DNA from: Janthinobacterium sp. UMAB-56
GTDB lineage: Bacteria > Pseudomonadota > Gammaproteobacteria > Burkholderiales > Burkholderiaceae_D
DNA length: 64,000 bases
Assembly: GCF_900095265.1 (NCBI RefSeq)
Contig: NZ_LT607671.1
Location: 1 to 64,000 of the forward strand
Reading direction: 5' to 3'
Positions within the stretch are counted from its first letter, which is position 1, and every line of letters begins with the position of its first letter. The notes under the pieces are model-generated. The model made no database searches. It had not been told where the DNA came from and saw nothing but the letters and a program-made list of their open reading frames with translations. Of the stretch, positions 5,017 through 38,088 are shown one piece after another. Position numbers and translations under genes: made by a program.

Positions 5017-5934
5017 TTACGCTGCGACCGCGACCGGCGCGGCGGCGGGAGCGGTGGCGCCATGGCGGGCAGCGTTGCGCACATGCAGGAAGTACACGTC
5101 TTCCAGGTCAGGGGCGATCTGCACGAAGCCGCTGTCGGGCTGGCTGTCGGCATACACATTGATTTGCGGCTTGCCGCCCACCAGGCGCGTTGACAGCACA
5201 TTCAAGGTTTGCTGGTACTGCGCCAGTTCTTCCGTCGTAACGCTGCGGCGCCAGACCTTGTCGTGCAAGGTGGCTATCGCCGCCTGCGGCTCGCCCTGCA
5301 CCAGCACCTGGCCCTTGACGATCATGGCCATGCGCGGGCACAGGTCCGTCACGTCGTCGACGATGTGCGTCGACAGTATAACCACTACTTGCTCGCCGAT
5401 CTTCGCCAGCAAGTTCAGGAAGCGATTGCGCTCATCCGGGTCCAGGCCGGCAGTGGGCTCATCGACGATCACCAGGCGCGGTGCACCGAGCAGTGCCTGG
5501 GCGATGCCGAAGCGCTGGCGCATGCCGCCCGAATACGTGCCCAGGTTGCGCTTGCGCGCTTCCCACAGATTGGTTTGTTGCAGCAATGCTTCCACGGCTT
5601 CCTTGCGCGGGCCCTTTTCCGTCAAACCTTTCAAGACGGCAAAGTGGTTGAGCAAGGTTTCCGCGCTGACCTTCGGGTAGACGCCGAAATCCTGCGGCAG
5701 ATAGCCGAGTTGGCGGCGCAGGCCGGCCTTGTCTTGCAACACATCGAGGCCATCGAAATGGATGCTGCCGCTATCGGGATCTTGTAAGGTGGCAATGGTG
5801 CGCATCAGCGAGGACTTGCCCGCGCCATTCGGTCCCAGCAAGCCGAACATTCCATTGGGAATTTCCAGGCTGACATTGTTGATGGCCTTGACGCCATTGG
5901 CGTACGTTTTGTTCAGCTGTTTGATCGATAGCAT
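5017..5934 (-). CDS. ABC transporter ATP-binding protein (partner of the permease/M1 fusion)
   Basis: A 305-residue cytoplasmic ATPase. Walker A GPNGAGKS lies at residues 34-41, followed by the YSGGMRQR signature and Walker B LVIVDEPTAGLD, with a D-loop and switch His (STHIVDD). The C-terminus ends in an Ala/Pro-rich tail. The start at 5934 is preferred over the ATG at 5943 because GGAG lies about 10 bases before it but only one base before the upstream ATG. It is the first gene of a two-gene operon with the downstream permease/M1 aminopeptidase, which it should energise. Family assignment is secure; export rather than import is inferred from the absence of a binding protein and the ABC-2 type partner. 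Confidence 0.9.
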   Translation of the reverse strand: MLSIKQLNKTYANGVKAINNVSLEIPNGMFGLLGPNGAGKSSLMRTIATLQDPDSGSIHFDGLDVLQDKAGLRRQLGYLPQDFGVYPKVSAETLLNHFAVLKGLTEKGPRKEAVEALLQQTNLWEARKRNLGTYSGGMRQRFGIAQALLGAPRLVIVDEPTAGLDPDERNRFLNLLAKIGEQVVVILSTHIVDDVTDLCPRMAMIVKGQVLVQGEPQAAIATLHDKVWRRSVTTEELAQYQQTLNVLSTRLVGGKPQINVYADSQPDSGFVQIAPDLEDVYFLHVRNAARHGATAPAAAPVAVAA

Positions 5935-26156: not shown

Positions 26157-27553
26157 AATTGGCAGAACTGCGCCGCTCGCTGACCCTGCGCGTCACGCTC
26201 GTCTTCGTGCTGATCGTGGCGCTCGTGTCGGCCGGGCTGGGCATGCATCTGTACCGCTCGTTCGTGGCGGAAATCGAGCGCCGCGACGACATTTTGTTGC
26301 TGGGAAAACTGCGGCAAATCCAGCAGCTGCTGGGCAATGCCGGCACCCTGGACATCATCCGCGAGCGGCCCCAGTATTTCCGCGACACCATGAGCGGGCA
26401 AGAGAATTCCTTGGTCCGTATCGTGCGCGCCGATGGCACGCGTTTGATCGATGTCAATCCGAACGGCGAGACGGTGGCGCATGCTGTTCCCGTGGCCGTC
26501 GATGCGCCCGTGACGGCCAGCGCCATCGTCAGCTGGACCAGCCGCGACGGCTATCCCGCCAGGGTCGTGGCAGCCAGCGCGCGCATCGGCGAACCGGCGC
26601 AGATGGCCGATATTGCCGTCGCCCGGGTCTACGGCGACCGCACGGCCATGTTTGCCGCCTACCGTTGGCAGATCGTCGTCTCGGTAGCCGTCAGCGCACT
26701 GGTGGCAGCCTTGCTCGCTAGCGTGATGCTGCTGCGGGGATTGCGGCCGTTGCGCAATATCGCCGCCCATGCTGCCCTCGTGCGGCCTGGCAAGCTGGAA
26801 CAGCAACTGGAGGCGCGCGGCGCACCCAGCGAACTGCTGCCCTTGATCCACGCGCTCAACGCCATGCTGGCGCGCTTGCAGGAAGGCTATGCGCGGCTGT
26901 CGCAGTTTTCCGCCGACCTGGCGCATGAATTTCGCACGCCCGTCACCAATCTGCTGGGTCAAAGCCAGGTCATGCTGGCCCGTCCGCGCAGTGCGCAAGA
27001 GTATGAACAGCTGGTATCGTCGAATGTGGAAGAGCTGGAACGGCTGTCGCGCATGATCGACAGCATGCTGTTTTTGGCGCGTGCGCAGCAGGAGGAAATG
27101 ATACTCGTCAAGCAAACCTTGCCCGTGCAGGACGAGTTCTTGCGCCTGGCCGATTTCTTTGAAGGCCTGGCCGAAGAGCGGGGGCTGGCGCTGGCCTGCC
27201 ACGGCAGCGGCACGGTGACGGCCGAGCCGCAACTGCTGCGCCGCGCGCTGGGCAACCTGTTGTCGAATGCGATACGCCACGCGGCGCCGGGCAGCACGAT
27301 TTTATTGCGTTCGCACGCGCCGAACGGGGGCGTGGAGCTGAGCGTGAGCAACCTCGGCCCGGCCATTCCCGCGCGCCACTTGCCCCACCTGTTCGAACGC
27401 TTCTACCGCGCCGACCCGGCCCGCAGCGACTCGGCCGCTTCCACCGGCCTGGGACTGGCCATCGTCACGGCCATCATGCAGCTGCATGGCGGCAGCGCGA
27501 GCGTGGCATCCGACGCGGCCGCCACGACGTTCACCCTCGTTTTCCCCGTTTAG
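26153..27553 (+). CDS. Sensor histidine kinase, CusS/HprS-like
   Basis: A 466-residue membrane kinase with TM1 (about 13-33), a periplasmic sensor of about 150 residues, TM2 (about 180-200), HAMP, HisKA with the phospho-acceptor in [16 protein letters not shown], and HATPase with N box [10 protein letters not shown] and G box STGLGLAIV. This is the heavy-metal sensor kinase layout shared by CusS and HprS. Because the divergent operon encodes a HIUase rather than copper efflux, an oxidant stimulus as for E. coli HprS is a reasonable guess. Its stop overlaps the end of the convergent helicase gene by 4 bases. Confidence 0.9.
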
Positions 27554-30500
27554 CCCATTTCTACCAAGAACTCATGCATGCCCGTATGCGGCAGTTGCGC
27601 GCAGGCCGGTGCAAAATGCGGCAACTGCCCCCACAGCAGCGGATTGCCGACGATGTACACGTAATGTTGCGCGCGCGTCAGGGCCACGTTGAGCAGGTTT
27701 GGCGTACTGGCCGCCCATTGCGCGGCGCCGGCCGTGCTGTCGTCGGCACCCAGGACCAGCATCACCACGCTTTGCTCCTTGCCCTGGAAGGTGTGCACGG
27801 TGCCCACCATCTGGCTGCTCCATAGGCGCAATTCGCGCGCCGTCGGTGCCTTGCCATAGCCGAGGCGGCGGTCCCAGTCCAGGTCGACGATGCGCGAGCG
27901 TAATTCGTTGCGCACGGCCTTGAACGGCGTGATCACATACATGTCGGGCAGCTTGCCGTCGCGGCGATACAGTTTCAGCAGCACTTCCAGCACGAAATCG
28001 AGTTGCACGGGCACCACTTGCTTGTAGCTGACGGCGCCGACGGCGTCGATCCAGCGGCTCGGGCCCCGCGTGAGGCCGCGCGCGCTGGCCGGCGGCGTGC
28101 GTTCGCTCAAGCCGTAGACCATCTTGTCTTCGTAGGCGATGCTATTGGCCAGCGAAAACATCGGTTCCACGCAGCGGCGGTGCACGCGCAAGGGGCTGCC
28201 TATCCACAGCGGCTGTGCGCTGCCGGCGCCGACTTGCGCGCCATAGCGGTTGGCCTTGTCGGCCAGTGTTTGCACGGAAACGGAAGTCGGCGCGTAACTG
28301 CCATCTTGCGTGTGCGGCGACAGGGCAGACAAGGTTTGCACGAGGCGCCCTGGCACCGTGAATACGGGTTCGATTTGCAGCGGGTCGCCCACGACGACGG
28401 CGCGCCTGGCGCGCCACAGGCTGCCCAGCGCCGCTTGCGGCACGGCCTGACCTGCTTCATCGATGAACAGCCAGCCCAGCGATTCGGGGCCCATGCCCTG
28501 GAACTGGCGCGCGAACGAAGCGAATGTGGTCGACACGACAGGCACCACCATGAACAGGCTATGCCAGACCATGGCGATGTGCGACTGGTCGTAGGCGCGC
28601 TTGTTTTTCAACAATTTCGACACGGCCAGCAAGTTGCCGCCAAAGCCGGGGCCGCCTTTCTTTGCTACTTCCGCCAGCCACGCTTCGTGCAGGGCCAGGG
28701 CTTTGGCGAACAGGCGCGAACGCAGGCGCGCCAGCGCCGGCTCATGCCACAGGCCGCCAATTTGCAGCGCGTCGCCGTCCAGCTCGTCCAGGGTCGCGGG
28801 CGCGATGATGGTGGGGAAGCGCATGCGCGCGCGGCGCAGCAGTTCCGTGCTGTCATCCCATTCGCGCTGGCGCGACTGCGCCGTGCGCAGGGCGATGTGC
28901 AGGCTGTGGCGGGCGCGCTCGCAGCGCGGCTCCAGCTCGCCCTTCAGCAGCAGCTTGATGGCGGATACGTCGCGCGCGGCCTGGCGTTGCGCTTCGGCGT
29001 TGGCGATGACGGCGTCCTTGTAGGCGCGCGCCGGCGCCGTGCGGAACAGGCGGGCAAAGAAACCTGGTTGCGTCAGCGCCACCAGGCGTTCTTCTTCCAG
29101 CAATTCCTTCTTGCTGGCAAGCAGGGTGTCCTGCTGTGCCAGCGCGCTGGACAGGGCGCCATTCGCCGCATCCATCTCTTGCTCGGCCGCAATCAACGCT
29201 TGCTGGCTGGCCTGGATGAAGTCGCCTTCCGTGCAAGTGCCTACGGCTTGCCACAGGGCCGCGTATTGGGCGTGTTCGGCCAGGGCTTTTTCCACCACGT
29301 GTTCCGTCTCGCGAAACTCGCGCGCCGCCTGGGCGAAGCTTACGCCCTGGTAGCTGGCCAGCCATTGGCGGATATTCTGCGCGTTCGGCGTCTTGCGCGC
29401 CGTGCTCTTGTCCCAGTCGTCGTCATAAAAATTGCTGACGAAGCGGCGGCGGTTCGCGCTATTGCCCAGCGCGCAGGACATCAAGCCCCATGGCGCTTCC
29501 GTCTCGCTCAGGGCGCGGTTCGCGCCATTGCCATCGGCCACGACGCGGCGCGCCACGCTTTCAAAGTAACGCGTGCGCGCCCATTCCTTGCCCAGCTGCT
29601 TTGGCTTCGGCAAGTCACCGGAAATGTTTTCCACCGCCGCGTTATTCGACGAGGCGACGACCATTTCAAAGCCCGTCAGTTCCGGGCGCAAGCGGGCGAT
29701 GGTGATGGGGTCGCGCACGCCTTCGAAGGCCACGGCCACCTTGCCGATGAAGGCGTCGCCGGCACGGTCCAGGCAAGCCAGTACGCTGGCGCGGCGCACG
29801 ATATTGTCGGCGAACAATTCGCGCAACAAGGTCGTCTTGCCCGTGCCGGGCGGGCCGTTGACGGAAAAGATGCCCCGTTCATGCAGACTGGTACGCGCGC
29901 CGTGGATGGCGAACTGTTGCATCAGGCTCATGGCATAGCTGGCGTCTTCCAGCCAGTGTCCCCGGTGCATATTGGCTGGATTGAGCATGGCGGCCAGCGC
30001 CTGGCGTCCGGCTGGACTGTACAGGTCGATGCGCTCATCGTGCGCCAGCGGCGTCAGATAGGCGGCCACGGTGGGCGGCAGCTTGCCGCCACGCAAGGCG
30101 CGGATGATCTGTTCCAGGTCGTCGAGATAAAAACTGTTGAGAATATCGATCGATGGTTCCACCGCATCGCCAAAGTCCAGCGTGCGGTTCTGGCTGGTCT
30201 CTAGCGTATCGGCCGCGTCGCTGGCGGCGCGTTTTTTGCGCGTGCGCAATTCCAGCACGGCCAGCGGCTGGCCCGCCGACGGGTGGAAGCCGGCCCAGTC
30301 GCGCAGCAGGTCGGCCAGCGCCGCGATTTCCATGCCGGACAGGGGCGACGAGACATTGCCCGCCTCGTCCGTCACTTGCTGCGGTACGCGGGCAGCGGCG
30401 AAATTGCGCAAGCTGTCTTGCAAGGCCAGCTGGCTGTCGCTGAAGGCGTCCAGGCTCAGGCCCGACCAGTCAGGCGTGCGCGCGCGACCCAGCGCCCACG

Positions 30501-30888
30501 GCAACGTTGAAACAGAGACGGGGTCGAACTGCGGCTCGCCCAGCGCATTCAAGTTCAGGCGGGCAAAGCACGAGCGTCCGGCCAGTTCCGTTTTTTCTGT
30601 TTCGGCCATGTTTTCCGGGCCGCTGGCCGGCGGACAAGCCTTGTTGATTTCGGCCTTGTCGAACACGCCGAGGAACAGCGAAAAGCCGTCGATCTCGCGG
30701 TCGGACGGTACTTGCCATTGCGTGGCGAACTGCAGCGGCAATTGCGCCAGCTGTTCGCGGTGCAGGAGACGCACGGTGGACTGGTCTTCAACGTCCGTGA
30801 TTTGATTCAGGTCAAACGGGATAAAGAATTCGATCTTGTGCCAATACTCCAGGATAGCCAGGAGGCGCTGCTGTTCTGCCTGATTCAT
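27550..30888 (-). CDS. Large SF1 (DNA2/NAM7-like) helicase / AAA domain protein
   Basis: A 1112-residue ATPase. Residues 1-340 match no domain I know. Walker A GPPGTGKTT is at 345-353, a long coiled-coil, Glu/Ala-rich insertion spans roughly 500-680, Walker B LFIDEAGQ is near 807, followed by motif III GDPLQIEPV, motif V GTVHTFQGKEQS and motif VI NVALTRAQH. This is a 5'-to-3' SF1B-type core with AAA_11/AAA_12 halves. Nucleic-acid unwinding is expected; the biological role is unknown. The ATG at 30888 has only a weak ribosome site, but similarity to the family's N-terminus begins there. The frame is open beyond it, which is a GC effect. It is transcribed alone. Confidence 0.85.
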   Translation of the reverse strand: MNQAEQQRLLAILEYWHKIEFFIPFDLNQITDVEDQSTVRLLHREQLAQLPLQFATQWQVPSDREIDGFSLFLGVFDKAEINKACPPASGPENMAETEKTELAGRSCFARLNLNALGEPQFDPVSVSTLPWALGRARTPDWSGLSLDAFSDSQLALQDSLRNFAAARVPQQVTDEAGNVSSPLSGMEIAALADLLRDWAGFHPSAGQPLAVLELRTRKKRAASDAADTLETSQNRTLDFGDAVEPSIDILNSFYLDDLEQIIRALRGGKLPPTVAAYLTPLAHDERIDLYSPAGRQALAAMLNPANMHRGHWLEDASYAMSLMQQFAIHGARTSLHERGIFSVNGPPGTGKTTLLRELFADNIVRRASVLACLDRAGDAFIGKVAVAFEGVRDPITIARLRPELTGFEMVVASSNNAAVENISGDLPKPKQLGKEWARTRYFESVARRVVADGNGANRALSETEAPWGLMSCALGNSANRRRFVSNFYDDDWDKSTARKTPNAQNIRQWLASYQGVSFAQAAREFRETEHVVEKALAEHAQYAALWQAVGTCTEGDFIQASQQALIAAEQEMDAANGALSSALAQQDTLLASKKELLEEERLVALTQPGFFARLFRTAPARAYKDAVIANAEAQRQAARDVSAIKLLLKGELEPRCERARHSLHIALRTAQSRQREWDDSTELLRRARMRFPTIIAPATLDELDGDALQIGGLWHEPALARLRSRLFAKALALHEAWLAEVAKKGGPGFGGNLLAVSKLLKNKRAYDQSHIAMVWHSLFMVVPVVSTTFASFARQFQGMGPESLGWLFIDEAGQAVPQAALGSLWRARRAVVVGDPLQIEPVFTVPGRLVQTLSALSPHTQDGSYAPTSVSVQTLADKANRYGAQVGAGSAQPLWIGSPLRVHRRCVEPMFSLANSIAYEDKMVYGLSERTPPASARGLTRGPSRWIDAVGAVSYKQVVPVQLDFVLEVLLKLYRRDGKLPDMYVITPFKAVRNELRSRIVDLDWDRRLGYGKAPTARELRLWSSQMVGTVHTFQGKEQSVVMLVLGADDSTAGAAQWAASTPNLLNVALTRAQHYVYIVGNPLLWGQLPHFAPACAQLPHTGMHEFLVEMG

Positions 30889-31040
30889 GATGACCAATAT
30901 TTTGTAAAGCGAGCGAGGATTGTAAAGCGTATGCGCGGCGCACGTTTTGCACTTTTGCCTATTGCGCGGGCTTTGCCGTAAAAAAAGTTGGCCTGTCAGT
31001 GGAAAGAAGCCGGACGGCAACTTCGAACGCATCTTTGTCG

Positions 31041-31070
31041 TTGACAGCTTGTTATTGTTGCTGCTACTGT
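31041..31070 (+). promoter_or_regulatory. Promoter of the GntR-ABC-peptidase operon
   Basis: A perfect -35 TTGACA (31041-31046) is followed after 18 bases by TACTGT (31065-31070) as -10, matching 4 of 6 positions. The -10 overlaps the left arm of the palindrome at 31066. Confidence 0.65.
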
Positions 31071-31090
31071 ACTGCCTGTAATAGTACAGT
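31066..31090. promoter_or_regulatory. Perfect inverted repeat, probable GntR operator
   Basis: ACTGTACT (31066-31073) and AGTACAGT (31083-31090) form a perfect 8-bp inverted repeat with a 9-base spacer, overlapping the -10 region and ending 11 bases before the GntR start codon. Position and symmetry indicate autorepression by the YtrA-type regulator. Confidence 0.75.
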
Positions 31091-31101
31091 GAAGTCATGC
31101 C

Positions 31102-31512
31102 ATGAACCGTCGAAGTCCCTTGATGCTGCAGATCGCTACAGGCGATCCGCGCCCCATCCATCGCCAGATCGTTGACGGTGTACGGCGCCTGATCGCCAGC
31201 GGCGAGTTGACGCTGGGCGCGAACTTGCCCAGTGTCCGTGGCCTGGCCTTGCAGTTGGGCATTAATCCGAACACGGTCGCCAAGGCTTATAGCGAACTGA
31301 CGGCGGAGGGCTGGCTGGATGCGCGCGCCGGCCTGGGCCTGTTCGTGGCTGCGCCGCGCCAGCGCCTGTCCGACGAGGAACGCGCACGGCGTCTGGACGA
31401 AGCGTTGACCCGCTTCGTCGGCGACGTCATCGCGCTCGACTATCCTGCTGGCGTGGTGCTGGAACGCGTAGCGGGCGAACTGGCCTTGTGCCTTCCCAAG
31501 AAGACCGGCTGA
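31102..31512 (+). CDS. GntR family transcriptional regulator, YtrA subfamily
   Basis: A 136-residue protein. An N-terminal winged helix-turn-helix (residues about 15-80: IHRQIVDGVRRLIASGELTLG, LPSVRGLALQLGINPNTVAKAY) is followed by only about 45 residues forming short helices, the small C-terminal dimerisation region that defines the YtrA group. YtrA repressors typically control ABC transporter genes encoded just downstream, as here: the ATPase starts 9 bases after its stop. The perfect palindrome upstream is its likely operator. The inducing signal is not visible. Confidence 0.92.
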   Translation: MNRRSPLMLQIATGDPRPIHRQIVDGVRRLIASGELTLGANLPSVRGLALQLGINPNTVAKAYSELTAEGWLDARAGLGLFVAAPRQRLSDEERARRLDEALTRFVGDVIALDYPAGVVLERVAGELALCLPKKTG

Positions 31513-31521
31513 AAGTATCCG

Positions 31522-32445
31522 ATGACGAATGAACCCATCTTGCAGACCGACAAGTTGTCGCTGCGCTTCAAGGACAAGCATGCGCTAGACCAGCTTAGCC
31601 TGCGCGTGGCGCGCGGCGGCATCCATGCCATCGTCGGCGCGAATGGCGCTGGCAAGTCTTCGCTGTTCCGCGTGCTGCTGGGCTTCGAGGCGGCGACCGA
31701 AGGCAGCGCCCGTATTCTCGGTTGTGACTGCGCCCGGCTGACGCCGGACTTGCGTGGACGCATCGGCTATGTCAACGAGGAGCACACCTTGCCCCTGTGG
31801 CTGACGATCGGTGAACTGACAGCCATGCAACGCCGCCTGTACACGGGATGGAATGAGGAACGCTATTGCAGTGTGTTGCGCAACTTCAATGTATTGCCAG
31901 GGCAGCGCATCGCGCAGCTGTCGCGTGGGGAACGTGCCGGCGTGAATCTGGCGCTGGCGCTCGGGCAGAGTCCGGAACTGTTGATCCTCGACGAACCCAC
32001 GCTGGGCCTCGATGTGGTTGCCAAGCGTCTGTTCCTGGGGGCCATGATGGAAAGCAGCTATAGCGATGGCATGACCATTATCTATTGCTCGCACCAAATG
32101 GAAGAAATCGAGCGCGTGGCCGACCAGCTGATCATTCTTGAGCGCGGGCGTTTGTTGCAGGCTTGCGCGCCGGACGTCCTGTGCGAGCGGGTACTGCTGT
32201 GGGTGGCCGAATTTCCCTTCCTGCCGCCCGATACGAGAGCGCTGCCCGGTATCTTGCATACCGAACATATTGACGGACTGAGCCACTTCATGGTGCTGGA
32301 CCAGGGACCGGAATTTGCCGCACGCCTGCGCCTGCTGGGTGCGCGCAGCGTGCACAACATGCCCGTCAGCCTCGACCGCGCCATCAATGCCTTGTTGGCG
32401 CGCGGGCATATTTCCGCTGCTAACCCCGCGCTGTACGCGGCCTGA
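31522..32445 (+). CDS. ABC transporter ATP-binding protein
   Basis: A 307-residue ATPase with Walker A GANGAGKSS (about 39-47), Q-loop region YVNEEHTLPLWLTIGE, a signature LSRGERAG slightly divergent from LSGGQ, Walker B LLILDEPTLGLD and the switch His in YCSHQMEE. The C-terminal 80 residues form an accessory region as in DrrA/CcmA-like exporters. It is second in a four-gene operon controlled by the GntR regulator and its partner is the multi-spanning protein starting 13 bases later. Confidence 0.92.
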   Translation: MTNEPILQTDKLSLRFKDKHALDQLSLRVARGGIHAIVGANGAGKSSLFRVLLGFEAATEGSARILGCDCARLTPDLRGRIGYVNEEHTLPLWLTIGELTAMQRRLYTGWNEERYCSVLRNFNVLPGQRIAQLSRGERAGVNLALALGQSPELLILDEPTLGLDVVAKRLFLGAMMESSYSDGMTIIYCSHQMEEIERVADQLIILERGRLLQACAPDVLCERVLLWVAEFPFLPPDTRALPGILHTEHIDGLSHFMVLDQGPEFAARLRLLGARSVHNMPVSLDRAINALLARGHISAANPALYAA

Positions 32446-32458
32446 GAAAGACTTCTTC

Positions 32459-34288
32459 ATGGGCGACCTGTACCTGAGTGAGTGCCGCCGCTACCTGCGG
32501 GCCACCCTGATCTTTGCTGCCGTCCATATATTGGTGCAACTCTTCCTGGCCCGCTTAGGCAGCATCTTCCAGCAAGGCTGGCCCATGCAACTGCTCATCC
32601 TGGCAGTGTGCATGCTGGCAGGTCTGGGTCTTGCGCTGCATCAGATCGGCAGCTATCGCCAGCCCAGCCGCTGGCTGTGGCTGCTGCACCGGCCGCTGGC
32701 TCCCGGCGCCATCCTGGGAGGCTTGATGCTGGCGTCGGCCACGCTGATTGCCCTGGCCATTGGCCTGCCGCTGCTGCTGACCGTGCTGGGCACTGATTTT
32801 CTGTCGCCGCGCACGGTCGACATGCGCCACTACCTGGCCGTGCCTTACCTGGTGATGATGACGCTGATCGCCTGGCTGTGCGGCGCCGCCATCATGGTCA
32901 GCCGCCTGCGCTGTGCCTTCCTGCTTATTCTCCTGCCCTATGTGATGCTGATGCACGCGGCCGGCGCGCTCAGCCTGCTGCTGGCGACGCTGCCCTGCGC
33001 AGCGTTGTTGATGTGGAACGTGCACGCCAGTTTCACGCCCAGCCGCATGCGGCTCGCCGGCGGCCGCACCGCCACGCTGGCACAGGCGGTGCCACTGGTG
33101 GTGGGCATATATTGTCTGTTGCTGTGGGGTACGTTGGCTGTCTTTCACATCGCCCTGATCGGCTTGGACCGGCATCCGCAGACGATGGCCATGCCGTCGG
33201 CTGGCGGCTACGCGGATGTGAGCCGCGCCGATGGCCGCAGCCTGATGCTTGCCGGACTGGCCGGCGCCCAGGATGAGCGTGCGCCACTGTGGCGGCGCCA
33301 GTTGCCTTTGCTCGAAGTGGGGACCTTGCAAGCGACGATCACGCGCTATGCCGTGCGACAGCAATTGTCGAACCAGAACGCGCCGCCGCAGGCTGAGCTG
33401 AGCGATCTGCAGCAGCGCCTGACCTTCAATCACGGCAGCATGCGTTTCGACGTGCACGACATGCGCACGGGTGCGCTCATCAATCAGATGGGGCTGCATG
33501 GACTGGGGGACTTGCAGGCGTTTCCCGGCGTACCCGTACTTGCCGGTAATGTGCTCACCGGAAACATGGTGCTGGCATTCGAACCGGCTGGTCATGCGCT
33601 ACGGTTGCAGGCACTCTTGCCAGCCGGGGAGCAAGCGGTTGCAGCACCGAAGAAAATCAGCGAACGCGTGTATGTGCTCAGCAACGGCCACCTGCTCGTC
33701 TATGCGCCTGCCGCAGCGGCGCAGCCCGGTGCTGCCGATACGGAAGTGTTCCGCCTGCCATTGCCTGTACCGCTGAGCAATCTGGAGCGGGTTGATATCG
33801 CGCCATTGCTCGACGGTACGCTGGTTTCCATCACGGGGGGGCGCGCCATGCAGTCAGGCGTACCAGGCAGTACGCAAGCGTTGCTGTTCGTCGACGCCAG
33901 CGGCCGCGCGCAGCCGGTCGCCACGCACGCCATCGACCACGATTTTCCGCTGCTGTTCGAACACGCCGACTGGTGGCTCTCACCCGCGCTGCATGCGCTC
34001 GTCAATCTGCCGCAGCGGATGTATGCTGATGGCGCCGTGCCGGATCTGACTGACGACAATGCCCGGCCTGTCGTCCGTCCGGCTGCCGTCTGGAGCGCCG
34101 CACTGTTGGCCGCTTTGCTCAGCGTCATGGGCGCGTGGTACTGGCGGCGGCAGGCCGGCGATGTGCCGCGCATCTGGCTGCTGGCCTGCGCGCTGCTGGG
34201 GCCTGCCTGCCTGCTGACGCTGCTGATCCTGCATCCACGCTCGCCAGTACCGCAGGCGCGCCCGCTTGCTGCTGCGTTGGCCAGATGA
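32459..34288 (+). CDS. ABC transporter permease-like membrane protein with large extracytoplasmic domain
   Basis: A 609-residue protein. Six hydrophobic helices occupy about residues 14-232, then roughly 300 hydrophilic, beta-rich residues (about 240-540), then two further helices (about 545-595). The first block resembles ABC-2 type permeases; the large domain has no motif I recognise and is predicted to lie outside the cytoplasm. ATG 32459 follows the ATPase stop by 13 bases. The last codons overlap the peptidase start (ATGA at 34285), indicating translational coupling with an extracytoplasmic S9 peptidase. The permease role is inferred from context and topology. Confidence 0.75.
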   Translation: MGDLYLSECRRYLRATLIFAAVHILVQLFLARLGSIFQQGWPMQLLILAVCMLAGLGLALHQIGSYRQPSRWLWLLHRPLAPGAILGGLMLASATLIALAIGLPLLLTVLGTDFLSPRTVDMRHYLAVPYLVMMTLIAWLCGAAIMVSRLRCAFLLILLPYVMLMHAAGALSLLLATLPCAALLMWNVHASFTPSRMRLAGGRTATLAQAVPLVVGIYCLLLWGTLAVFHIALIGLDRHPQTMAMPSAGGYADVSRADGRSLMLAGLAGAQDERAPLWRRQLPLLEVGTLQATITRYAVRQQLSNQNAPPQAELSDLQQRLTFNHGSMRFDVHDMRTGALINQMGLHGLGDLQAFPGVPVLAGNVLTGNMVLAFEPAGHALRLQALLPAGEQAVAAPKKISERVYVLSNGHLLVYAPAAAAQPGAADTEVFRLPLPVPLSNLERVDIAPLLDGTLVSITGGRAMQSGVPGSTQALLFVDASGRAQPVATHAIDHDFPLLFEHADWWLSPALHALVNLPQRMYADGAVPDLTDDNARPVVRPAAVWSAALLAALLSVMGAWYWRRQAGDVPRIWLLACALLGPACLLTLLILHPRSPVPQARPLAAALAR

Positions 34289-36375
34289 TGGGCCTGGGCT
34301 TGGGCTACCGGCACTGTCTCTGGCACGCTGTCCTGGTCCTGGTCCTGGCGGCTGGCTTGACTCTGGCGGCGCCCGCTGCCGTGACGGCGACCTTGACGTT
34401 GGCGCCATTGCTGGCTCGCAATGCCGCTCTGCCGCCAGCGCCGCGCATTCCCAGTGCTGCCTTCGAGCGTCGCCCGCGTCTGCATGCGGTACACCTGTCG
34501 CCGGACGGGGCGTCGGTAGCGTATCTGGATGGCGAGGGGGCAAAGGCCAGCCTGCATGTGCTCGACACCCGCACGCAAGTGGCCAGGCGCCTGCTGGCCT
34601 TGCCTGGGCAGGTGGCCTTGTTCTGGTCCGGCGACAGCAGCACGCTGTTCCTGGCCATGCCGGACGGCGTGTCGGTGGTATCCGTTGCCGACAGCAGCAG
34701 CTACAAGCTGGCCGCCTTTGACGGCAGGGCCGAGCATCGCTTGTTTCCCGCAGATGCCGCTCACGCGCGCCATGTGCTGATGGCAAGCTACGCTGCGGCC
34801 AGCGGTATCTATCGCCTGGAGCGCATGGACACGCAAGGCCAACGCGAGCTGTTGTACCAGGGTGAACAGCTTTCCGGTTTCCTGCTGGACGCAACGGGTC
34901 GGCTGGGTTTTGCCATGACCGTCGCCAGTGATGGCATGCGTAGCATCCAGCGTCGCCAGGCTGCGGGCTGGCAAGAGGTGCTGCGTTGCCAGCGCGTCGA
35001 TGACTGCACGCTGGTGGCTGCCGCGCCTGATGCTTCCCGGCTGAGCATGCTCATGGCGCAGTATGGCGACCGCAGCGCGCTGGTGGAGATTGATCTGGCG
35101 CAAGGCAGGCGTCGCGTTGTGCATGCCGACCGCGCCGGCCTGGCAGATATCCGCCGGGTGATCAGCGATGCGGACCAGCGTACGCCGCTGTTTGCCCTGT
35201 TCGAATCGCCCATGCTGCACCATGCCGGGCTGACACAGTTGGCGCGCCGTGCCGTGGCTGATATTGACCGGCAATTTGGGCACGGAGGCGTCTTCATCGA
35301 AGCGGCACGAGGCGGGGCGACACTGTTGCTGATCGAGAGCGGATCACGCCTGAACCACGACCGTTACTGGCTGTACGACAGTGCCCGTCGCAGCACGCGC
35401 GAAATCCTGCAGGCGCAGCGCGCGGCTGGCCAGCCTTTGCCGCCGGGCCAGCTGGCGCAGACTAGCCCCATCCATTACCGTGCCTCGGATGGCGTGCTGG
35501 TCCATGGATATCTGACCTTGCCGCCCGGAAAGGTAGCGGCGTCGATGCCGCTGCTGACGCTGGTCCATGGCGGGCCGTGGGAACGGGTCAATGCCGCTTA
35601 CGCGCCACTAGTGCAATTGCTGGCGAACCGCGGTGTCGCCGTGTTCCAGCCGAATTTCCGCGCTTCCGTCGGTTATGGCCTGCATTACATGACGGCGGCC
35701 GGTGGCGACCTGGGCAACGGCCGCGTGCAGGCCGACATCGTTGATGGCGTGCGCTGGCTGCTGCGGCAGGGGGTGGGCGACCGGCAACGCCTGGCCATTG
35801 CCGGCCATTCCTTTGGCGGCTATGCGACCCTGCTGGCGCTGACACACACGCCCAGTCTGTTTCAGTTCGGCATGGCCATCGCACCGTCGCCCGACTTCGC
35901 GCGTACCCTGCGCACCATGGCCAGCGGGCCGGGCGGCGACCAGGCATTCCCGCTGCGTCTACAGGATATGGGTGTGGACTTGCAGGATGGCGTCGCCATG
36001 CGGACGCTGGAGGCTGGCGCCCCCGTGCGCCACACGGACCAGGTTGGCAAGCCGCTGCTGATCATGGCTGGCGCCAGAGACAGCACGGTGCAGATCGCAT
36101 CGGTGACGGATTATGTGGCCCGGTTACAGTTGTCCGGCAAGCCAGTCAGCCTGCTGGTCGATCCCGAGGAAGGGCATAATCCGCGCCATCCCCTGTACCG
36201 CCAGGCTGCGGCGTATCTGCTGGAACAATTGCTGCAGCAGCATCTGGGCGGGCCGGCGCCAGCTGCACCGGGAGCGAAATTGGACTCCTACTTGCGCCAA
36301 ACGCTGAAAGCGAACCGGGCTTTGCCAGCGCTGTTCGCCGTGCCGGGGGCGGACGCAGCCCTCAAGATCCCTTAA
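34285..36375 (+). CDS. S9 family serine peptidase (prolyl oligopeptidase type), exported or membrane anchored
   Basis: A 696-residue protein. The first about 30 residues form a hydrophobic signal or anchor, followed by a seven-bladed beta-propeller-like region (about 60-400) and an alpha/beta hydrolase domain. The catalytic triad is readable: Ser-509 in GHSFGG, Asp-599 in GARDS and His-631 in EEGHNP; HGGP (about 430) supplies the oxyanion hole. S9 enzymes cleave short peptides after Pro or acyl residues; lasso-peptide isopeptidases share this architecture and size. It is the last gene of the GntR-ABC operon and overlaps the permease gene by 4 bases. The substrate is unknown. Confidence 0.88.
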   Translation: MMGLGLGYRHCLWHAVLVLVLAAGLTLAAPAAVTATLTLAPLLARNAALPPAPRIPSAAFERRPRLHAVHLSPDGASVAYLDGEGAKASLHVLDTRTQVARRLLALPGQVALFWSGDSSTLFLAMPDGVSVVSVADSSSYKLAAFDGRAEHRLFPADAAHARHVLMASYAAASGIYRLERMDTQGQRELLYQGEQLSGFLLDATGRLGFAMTVASDGMRSIQRRQAAGWQEVLRCQRVDDCTLVAAAPDASRLSMLMAQYGDRSALVEIDLAQGRRRVVHADRAGLADIRRVISDADQRTPLFALFESPMLHHAGLTQLARRAVADIDRQFGHGGVFIEAARGGATLLLIESGSRLNHDRYWLYDSARRSTREILQAQRAAGQPLPPGQLAQTSPIHYRASDGVLVHGYLTLPPGKVAASMPLLTLVHGGPWERVNAAYAPLVQLLANRGVAVFQPNFRASVGYGLHYMTAAGGDLGNGRVQADIVDGVRWLLRQGVGDRQRLAIAGHSFGGYATLLALTHTPSLFQFGMAIAPSPDFARTLRTMASGPGGDQAFPLRLQDMGVDLQDGVAMRTLEAGAPVRHTDQVGKPLLIMAGARDSTVQIASVTDYVARLQLSGKPVSLLVDPEEGHNPRHPLYRQAAAYLLEQLLQQHLGGPAPAAPGAKLDSYLRQTLKANRALPALFAVPGADAALKIP

Positions 36376-36381
36376 AACCCC

Positions 36382-38088
36382 TTAAAACTCTTCCCATTCG
36401 CTCTCTGCAGCGGCATTGCTGCGGCGCGCCGGTGCGGCGGCCACGGCCTGGCGCACGGGTGCCTTGCGGGCCACGGGGCGTGCGATGGCTGGCGCTGCCG
36501 GCGTCGCGCGCACAGGCGTCAGCTTGGGTGTGCTGGTGACTTGGTTGCCCGTCTTGAAGAAACCCACCACGTGCGCCAGTTCGCCCGCCTGTTCCTGCAT
36601 GCTTTGCGAAGCCGCCGCCGCTTCTTCCACCAGGGCTGCGTTTTGTTGCGTCACTTCATCCATCTGTGCAATGGCCATGTTGATCTGCTCGATGCCGATG
36701 GTTTGCTCGTGCGTGGCGGAGGTGATTTCGCCCATGATGTCGGTCACGCGCACGATGCTGTCGACGATGTCGCCCATGGTCTGGCCCGCTTCATTGACGA
36801 GGCGCGAACCCGTGTCTACGTTGGCGACGGAAGCGGCGATCAGTTCCTTGATTTCCTTGGCTGCCGAAGCCGAGCGGTGCGCCAGGTTGCGCACCTCGGT
36901 GGCCACGACAGCGAAGCCGCGGCCCTGTTCGCCCGCGCGCGCCGCTTCCACGGCCGCGTTCAATGCCAGGATGTTGGTCTGGAAAGCGATGCCGTCGATG
37001 ACGCCGATGATGTCGACGATCTTCTTCGACGACGCGTTGATGGTGCCCATGGTGTCGACCACTTGCGAGACGATGCTGCCGCCGCGCACGGCCACTTCGG
37101 ACGCGCTTTTTGCCAGCTGGTTCGCCTGGCGCGCATTGTCCGCGTTCTGCTTCACGGTCGAGGTCAGCTCTTCCATGGCCGACGCCGTCTCTTCCAGCGA
37201 ACTGGCCTGCTCTTCCGTGCGTGCTGACAGGTCGAGGTTGCCGGCGGCAATTTCGCTCGATGCCGTGGAGATCGCATCCGTGCCGTGGCGCACTTGCGCC
37301 ACCACGCCCAGCAGGCTGGTGTTCATGGCTTTCAGTGCGCCCAGCAGGCGCCCCGTTTCATCGCTGGAATTGACGACGATGTGCGACGACAGGTCGCCAG
37401 AGGCCACGGTTTCCGCCACGCTGACTGCCGCATTGATGGGGAGGGTGATCGAGCGCGTGATGATCCAGGCAACGAAGGCACCCAGCAGCACGGCCACGCT
37501 GCCCAGCGCTATCATGGAGGCGCGCGCGCTGGCGCTCAGCGATTCGGCCTCTGTTGCCGCCTGCGCCGCCTGCTGCGCTTCATAGGCGAGCAGGCTGTCG
37601 AGCGCGCCCAGCACGCGCTTCAGGCTCGGTGCCGCCTGCTGCGTCAAAAAGGCGATCGCTTCTTCGGTCTGGCCCGCATTGCGCAACTCGATGACCTTGT
37701 TGTTCAGCGGCGCGCCCGATTTCAGGGCGGCGTCCAGTTCGGCCATCAGGGCCGTTTCCTTGTCCGTCGAGATTTTCTTTTGCAAGGTTTCCTTGGCGGC
37801 GCCGTATTTCTTGCGCGATTCGCCGATTTTCGCCAGTTCCGCCTGCACCAGCGCTTCCGTCGGCGCCACCACCACGCTGGTGATCGCCAGGGTGATGTTG
37901 CGCACGTTGTCGCTCATGGTGTTGGCCGCCGCCATCTTGACGTTCTTGTCGGTGACGATGTCATGCGTGCGTGCGCTCAGTTGCCCCATGGAGTACAGGC
38001 CGACGAGCAAGACGGCCACCAGCAGGCCGAGAACGACAGCAAACCCGATCCCGAGCCGGGTGCCGATTTTGAATTGTGTGAGTGACAT
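36382..38088 (-). CDS. Methyl-accepting chemotaxis protein, 4HB type, with EWEEF tail
   Basis: A 568-residue chemoreceptor: TM1 (about 10-31), a periplasmic four-helix-bundle domain (about 35-190), TM2 (about 190-212), HAMP, and the signalling domain with hairpin tip [23 protein letters not shown]. The C-terminal linker is Ala/Pro/Arg rich and ends in EWEEF, resembling the NWETF pentapeptide that tethers CheR and CheB. Its ligand is unknown. It converges with the S9 peptidase gene, 6 bases apart. Confidence 0.92.

Follow-up and report, generated by a model that had tools for sequence, protein, structure and literature searches.

Operons in which a YtrA-type regulator accompanies an ATP-binding cassette (ABC) transporter serve as markers of envelope stress, and the function of their Bacillus subtilis prototype is still debated (accessible text of PMC12772383). 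We analyzed a compact version of such an operon at positions 31102–36375 of a 64,000-nucleotide stretch of Janthinobacterium sp. UMAB-56 DNA (contig NZ_LT607671.1; hereafter the window). This version has a single ATPase, in most cases a single permease and a single operator per genome, and a gene for a serine peptidase of family S9. With a peptidase gene in so compact an operon, the question of its substrate becomes what one enzyme cuts. No paper on this four-gene set was found in the literature; as far as could be found its function is undescribed, and the operon is likely to link a membrane pump with an exported enzyme that cleaves peptides. New here are the operator, its copies in front of extra peptidase genes in a Massilia species and the occurrence of the operon as a clean cassette in congeners.

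The operon shares with ytrGABCDEF of B. subtilis a YtrA-subfamily GntR repressor within an ABC operon and a long dyad operator, but it has one ATPase, one permease with a propeller-like domain, and the S9 gene. ABC permeases fused to M1 aminopeptidase domains combine a transporter permease with an outward-facing peptidase, which here is a separate S9 protein. PmtR-PmtABCD, the staphylococcal exporter of phenol-soluble modulins, pairs a GntR regulator with an ABC exporter of harmful peptides, to our knowledge without a peptidase; identity with this system was rejected, as regulator and ATPase score 37.7 and 114.8 bits against the NCBIfam models for PmtR and PmtA (cut-offs 200 and 350). BceAB-type antimicrobial-peptide transporters differ in that the operon here comes without a two-component system and its permease carries a propeller-like domain. 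The permease gave no FtsX-type Pfam match at E ≤ 1, and the absence of the BceB fold from its fold matches, a list filled by propellers, is no test. Atxe2-type lasso isopeptidases resemble the peptidase in being S9-type enzymes of similar size with a propeller and a hydrolase domain; the score here lies far below their cut-off, and neither a TonB receptor nor a sigma pair is present among the four neighboring genes examined. An Acinetobacter baumannii operon likewise has a GntR regulator co-transcribed with an ABC efflux system, but also contains genes for a substrate-binding protein, a dehydrogenase and a ferredoxin, and its GntR protein acts as an activator (PMC13104710); its text mentions neither YtrA nor a peptidase by word.

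Conservation of the four-gene unit

The operon and its control region comprise the following features, in window coordinates.

31102–36375, + strand: whole operon, four genes in one tight array (reading frames)
31102–31512, + strand: GntR/YtrA-type repressor, 136 residues (Pfam GntR; identity of relatives)
31522–32445, + strand: ABC ATPase, 307 residues, with Walker A, LSRGE signature, Walker B and H-loop (Pfam ABC_tran)
32459–34288, + strand: permease, 609 residues, membrane helices flanking a beta-propeller-like domain (AlphaFold2 model, topology counts)
33170–34081, + strand: permease middle domain, residues 238–541, predicted extracytoplasmic, partial beta-propeller-like (domain model, fold matches)
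34285–36375, + strand: S9 serine peptidase, 696 residues, predicted exported (Pfam, S9 peptidases in PDB, catalytic triad)
31041–31046, + strand: likely -35 element TTGACA (conserved spacing of TTGAC upstream of the operator)
31065–31070, + strand: poor -10 element TACTGT, overlapping the operator (read with the -35 TTGACA)
31066–31090, no strand assigned: operator ACTGTACT-N9-AGTACAGT, presumed site of the GntR repressor (conservation, shuffles)
30989–36380, + strand: cassette spanning the entire operon plus its control region, with the left edge between 30989 and 31025 (comparison with empty sites)

The four genes occur together well beyond this genome. A full-length permease is present in 3 of 37 genomes of the genus. 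In a sample of 294 genomes of the family, the permease profile matches 21 at E ≤ 0.001, of which 19 were counted and two weak matches (G192 and G085) left out. Close S9 orthologues (E ≤ 1e-60) were found in 15 of the 294 genomes, all within the 19 and each with a copy adjoining the permease, and no permease-less family genome carries an S9 protein at this threshold; this scoring took the best few first-look candidates per genome, leaving remoter S9 proteins uncounted. The close ATPase (E ≤ 1e-50) is confined to 18 genomes, again all within the 19, the exception being G165 with its partial permease match. A scan of named genomes yielded 24 loci from records titled Massilia, Duganella or Pseudoduganella (Oxalobacteraceae), which overlap the family sample (e.g., L034 and L044 belong to G169), so that the counts are not independent. 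Repressor, ATPase and permease stand together in 24/24 of these loci, with S9 downstream in 13 of the 23 evaluable; ten are without S9 and one is cut by a contig end.

Outside the family, a phylum sample of 398 genomes gave four matches, namely the window genome and three further genomes with all four genes in order, two from other families of the same class and one from another class. With the ATPase as query (E ≤ 1e-60), 16 of 200 genomes from the order of G718 matched, including the two earlier same-class genomes, and in the class of G629 the query found G629 alone (1 of 210). S9 lies directly downstream in all 15 evaluable loci outside the family (17 in total, two cut by contig ends). The same gene order hence recurs in Oxalobacteraceae, in another order of that class and in a single genome from a different class. 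This supports a sequence-only reading of this stretch insofar as its four tightly packed genes are a genuine unit, which the comparison shows to be conserved. That reading would have given up its idea of one machine if permease and peptidase occurred mostly apart; the search found them adjacent in 15/15 family carriers and at 15/15 outside loci.

That the peptidase is an obligatory part of such a machine is nevertheless not supported, given the ten S9-less loci among 23 and the phylogeny. In a tree built from 45 permeases, of which 33 come from S9-bearing loci, 11 from S9-less loci and one from a locus of unknown state, the S9 label needs four changes, compared with a mean of 10.0 in shuffles, and at least three of the four are forced by well-supported branches. 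Because S9 is present at all evaluable loci outside the family, the pattern is most simply read as losses of the peptidase within Oxalobacteraceae, apparently about four of them. The losses suggest that repressor, ATPase and permease are the core, with the peptidase as an ancient, dispensable partner. Gaps of 9 and 13 bases followed by a 4-base overlap separate the genes exactly as reported before; the translational coupling of permease and peptidase read from this overlap is a weak argument for one machine, because the overlap does not recur throughout: at eight other loci, 7–38 bases separate the permease stop from the S9 start (S9 start chosen mechanically). In the other five S9-bearing loci of the named-genome scan the mechanically chosen frame begins within the permease and is uninformative on overlap.

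Operator and encoded proteins

The regulator matches Pfam PF00392 with 55.5 bits (cut-off 27), the domain ending at residue 82 of 136, and its closest PDB sequences are short GntR-type proteins. Relatives outside the genus are 58–79% identical and those outside the family 58–69%, with 51–53% in family f112. The YtrA subfamily is defined by a C-terminal part of about 50 residues, and its motifs typically span about 24 bp with distant half sites (PMC6746942, in the accessible text). The protein has the GntR winged helix, a short C-terminal part and a long operator near its own gene and is, on these testable features, a member of the subfamily that would bind and repress its own operon.

The operator is a 25-bp site starting 36 bases upstream of the GntR start codon. 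At no more than 2 mismatches in 16 positions it was found in 30 of 31 GntR upstream regions, S9-less loci included, and exactly in 22, whereas none of 6200 mononucleotide shuffles of these regions came within 2 mismatches (best shuffle, 3). Fourteen further loci contain it in 10 cases at ≤2 and in 11 at ≤3 mismatches; the standard operator was not found at ≤3 mismatches at the three loci of f112. Combined, 40 of 45 loci have the site at ≤2 and 41 at ≤3 mismatches, just before the repressor gene. A TTGAC starts 24–25 bases upstream of the operator in 27 of the 31 regions, so that the operator would overlie the -10 region. The two known sites of B. subtilis YtrA have 13 bp between half sites (PMC4730234), which is the spacing here if the site is read as ACTGTA-N13-TACAGT; the GGTG-N16-CACC bound by a Xanthomonas citri relative (PMC6746942) is different. 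Genome-wide scans of 22 operon-bearing genomes at ≤2 mismatches (G165, with its partial permease, excluded) revealed a single site in 20, and the regulator therefore looks local. A reversed control pattern matched in 8 of the 22, one to three times each, so isolated two-mismatch sites can arise by chance. The window genome contains one further two-mismatch site, at C4:137655–137679.

Massilia arenosa (genome G169; loci L034/L044) harbors the only one of the 31 GntR genes without an operator directly upstream. Between this gene and a two-mismatch operator (L044 11585–11609) lies an M13 peptidase gene (L044 9505–11559, − strand; Pfam PF05649 410 bits, PF01431 244 bits); the operator copy is located 25 bases before an in-frame GTG and has a TTGAC 25 bases before the site, the layout of the main operon. 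The genome also carries a second S9 copy elsewhere, a solo gene on contig C144, with a two-mismatch operator copy 77 bases before its ATG and no TTGAC at the usual distance. With zero to three chance sites per genome, we estimate that two sites at peptidase genes are unlikely to be a coincidence. The M. arenosa regulator may thus control three peptidases, and such shared control, which is likely, fits peptide handling. Operator-like sites at ≤2 mismatches number three in G169, the third lying at C92:6079–6103 with two mismatches.

By domain (Pfam PF00326, 113.6 bits; cut-off 22.6) and catalytic residues the fourth gene product belongs to peptidase family S9 and is presumably active. The Ser509/Asp599/His631 triad, placed at these positions already by the sequence-only reading, is invariant in 32/32 aligned S9 sequences including that of the window; Cys235 and Cys241 each show 29/32 conservation, and signal-like N-terminal segments (20 examined by eye) predict export. 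The closest solved sequences to the catalytic domain are aminoacyl/acylaminoacyl peptidases (PDB 5l8s, E 1.2e-21; 1ve6, E 2.6e-20), from which the enzyme differs in its predicted export and its tie to an ABC operon. Identity to relatives outside the family is 28–37%, and the window genome holds nine weaker S9-type matches besides. Past the catalytic His, a tail at about residues 660–685 appears by eye partly conserved and of variable length in relatives, a possible docking element.

The ATPase matches Pfam PF00005 with 87 bits, is 50–63% identical to relatives outside the family, and keeps its Walker A, signature, Walker B and H-loop residues invariant in 31/31 sequences except for two Walker A positions. 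Its best-scoring models and structures are of DrrA, RbbA and ABCA types, with importer-type ATPases such as DppD lower. In PADLOC-DB 2023 (E ≤ 0.01) the regulator, permease and peptidase matched no anti-phage family; ten ATPase matches (best mad3, 97.3 bits) were taken as generic ATPase similarity. The permease belongs to no recognized family, with no match in Pfam (E ≤ 1), NCBIfam (E ≤ 0.1) or PDB sequences (E ≤ 1). Its AlphaFold2 model has a predicted local distance difference test score (pLDDT) of 89.5 and a predicted template modeling score of 0.87, and the middle domain modeled alone reaches a pLDDT of 88.0. Fold matches of this domain are mostly beta-propellers, partial and weak; in the model it has a partial beta-propeller-like fold, predicted to face the periplasm, and the matches point to no evident receptor of another pathway, the other outcome that would have spoken against one machine. 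Of the earlier description as an eight-helix protein with an extracytoplasmic domain of roughly 300 residues, the domain stands as predicted, whereas topology counts suggest that nine membrane crossings fit the positive-inside pattern better than eight, albeit not cleanly. Permeases outside the family are 20–32% identical where the window protein gave a figure, and loci L070 and L072 of f112 encode two diverged permeases in tandem (L072 4379–8090). A profile search started from three outside-family permeases retrieved 728 proteins at E ≤ 0.001, which makes this a large family; among the 120 listed, named organisms include Lysobacter, Luteimonas, Pseudoxanthomonas, Frateuria and Montanilutibacter, and named members are called hypothetical, membrane or ABC permease proteins.

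Proposed peptide handling and competing explanations

The anatomy of the operon is well supported. We tentatively favor, without placing it above even chances, an envelope module, self-contained and autorepressed, in which peptides are extracted or exported and then hydrolyzed in the periplasm. The YtrA-type repressor would bind its operator over its own promoter and keep the operon off until an envelope signal releases it. The ABC complex would consist of a permease dimer and two ATPase copies, with a heterodimer suggested for f112 by its tandem permeases; the propeller-like domain would face the periplasm, ATP hydrolysis would drive the peptide out of the membrane or across it towards the periplasm, and the exported S9 peptidase would hydrolyze it there. 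The likeliest benefit would be protection from membrane-acting or otherwise harmful peptides. As the ABC part can persist without the peptidase, the enzyme would improve or complete disposal and be unneeded for transport. Several observations argue for this module: the restriction of close S9 orthologues to permease-bearing genomes in the family sample (15/15 carriers), the gene order kept across orders and a class, the recurrent operator and invariant triad, and the operator copies before the solo S9 and M13 genes of M. arenosa. ABC importers usually need a binding protein, and the lack of a binding-protein gene in the operon favors export or extraction. Autoregulation is in line with the typical length and distant half sites of YtrA motifs (PMC6746942).

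Other points weigh against it. The ABC part stands without a peptidase in ten of 23 evaluable named-genome loci, and no common replacement gene was seen in the open reading frame lists of these ten (sequence beginnings, by eye). Substrates of S9-type enzymes also include acylated, modified and non-peptide compounds. Evidence for additional peptidases under the operator comes from one species with two-mismatch sites, and a generic promoter scan of 30900–36500 called no promoter. A GntR regulator encoded next to ABC genes can also activate, as reported for Acinetobacter (PMC13104710), and a 2025 study of the prototype ytr operon describes, in its accessible part, no consistent role in antibiotic survival (PMC12772383).

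This last result, with the stimulation of cell-wall synthesis at the lipid II cycle by expression of the B. subtilis ytr ABC genes (same source), makes envelope homeostasis the main rival. In a module like YtrBCDEF, the ABC complex would act on a cell-wall or lipid-linked intermediate, and S9 would have the secondary job of trimming a protein or peptide of the envelope. YtrA-type regulation and the S9-less loci agree with this; alone, it does not explain why S9 stands beside the permease at every evaluable locus outside the family, or why peptidase genes share the operator in one species, and we consider it possible but on the unlikely side. A predicted exported peptidase encoded next to a transporter would also suit nutrient scavenging, with peptides degraded outside the inner membrane and the products imported, and the M13 peptidase added in one species could be read likewise. 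This scavenging role, raised by the sequence-only reading, is improbable: the operon genes include no binding protein or outer-membrane receptor, 20 of 22 genomes have one operator site, the distribution is patchy, and importer-type ATPases rank below the DrrA, RbbA and ABCA types in the ATPase matches. Import is less likely than export or extraction. Equally improbable is export-linked maturation or quality control, whereby the complex would release one of the host's own peptides, secreted or anchored in the membrane, for the peptidase to mature; the constant gene order and the conserved, predicted exported peptidase are compatible with it, but with 27 of the 30 scorable genomes of the genus lacking it, the cassette serves no general host function.

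Processing of a lasso peptide or another ribosomally synthesized and post-translationally modified peptide, with S9 linearizing a cognate product exported by the complex, is very unlikely. The general architecture of the enzyme is shared with lasso isopeptidases, whose model is its best NCBIfam match, and isopeptidase clusters also hold a GntR-like regulator; according to the accessible text of the same source, however, they include genes for a TonB receptor and a sigma/anti-sigma pair, and ABC genes occur in a single one of them (PMC9266682). The adjoining genes here encode a helicase, a chemoreceptor, DinB and MarC (no genome-wide search for lasso genes was made). The score of 57.5 bits against the NF033523 cut-off of 400 (39.1, 67.9, 60.5 and 43.9 bits in four relatives) speaks against an Atxe2-type isopeptidase and leaves the earlier analogy weak. 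A bolder version of peptide disposal seems rather unlikely to us: a new class of energy-coupled periplasmic machine, in which the propeller-like domain would receive a membrane-lifted peptide and hand it to a docked S9 enzyme, the YtrA-type repressor would be a dedicated sensor, and more peptidases would be recruited by copying the operator.

Cassette boundaries and flanking genes

The operon is a clean 5.4-kb cassette in congeners. Spacing between the helicase and chemoreceptor matches is 454–513 bases in 27 of 40 congeneric genomes and 5793–5800 in the three with the operon, so scored as 27 absent and 3 present, with 10 not scorable. Five empty sites were compared: on the left, homology stops at 30988 (three sites) or 31024 (two sites); on the right, it picks up again at 36381 or 36382 in four of them, and the fifth (L077) displays a 26-base match from 36381 and a long match from 36547. 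From these breakpoints the cassette corresponds to the operon plus its control region. Its GC content is 64.8%, compared with 61.5% for the rest of the window, and third-position GC is 76–79% in the operon versus 81–82% in two flanking genes. The natural presence or absence of the cassette at the same site in close relatives offers matched strains for testing.

Of the four neighboring genes (one left, three right), the left flank (27550–30933, − strand) encodes a large helicase-like AAA protein (AAA_11, AAA_12) that adjoins the chemoreceptor in 30 of the 40 congeneric genomes. The right flank (36382–38088, − strand) encodes that methyl-accepting chemotaxis protein, which has a four-helix-bundle sensor and several paralogues per genome, and is followed by the DinB and MarC genes. 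By eye, an inverted repeat rich in GC, AAGCCAGGCAG...CTGCCTGGCTT, lies at about 715–787 of the empty site L073; it may be a terminator, and a diverged left arm of it seems retained in the window near 31007–31024.

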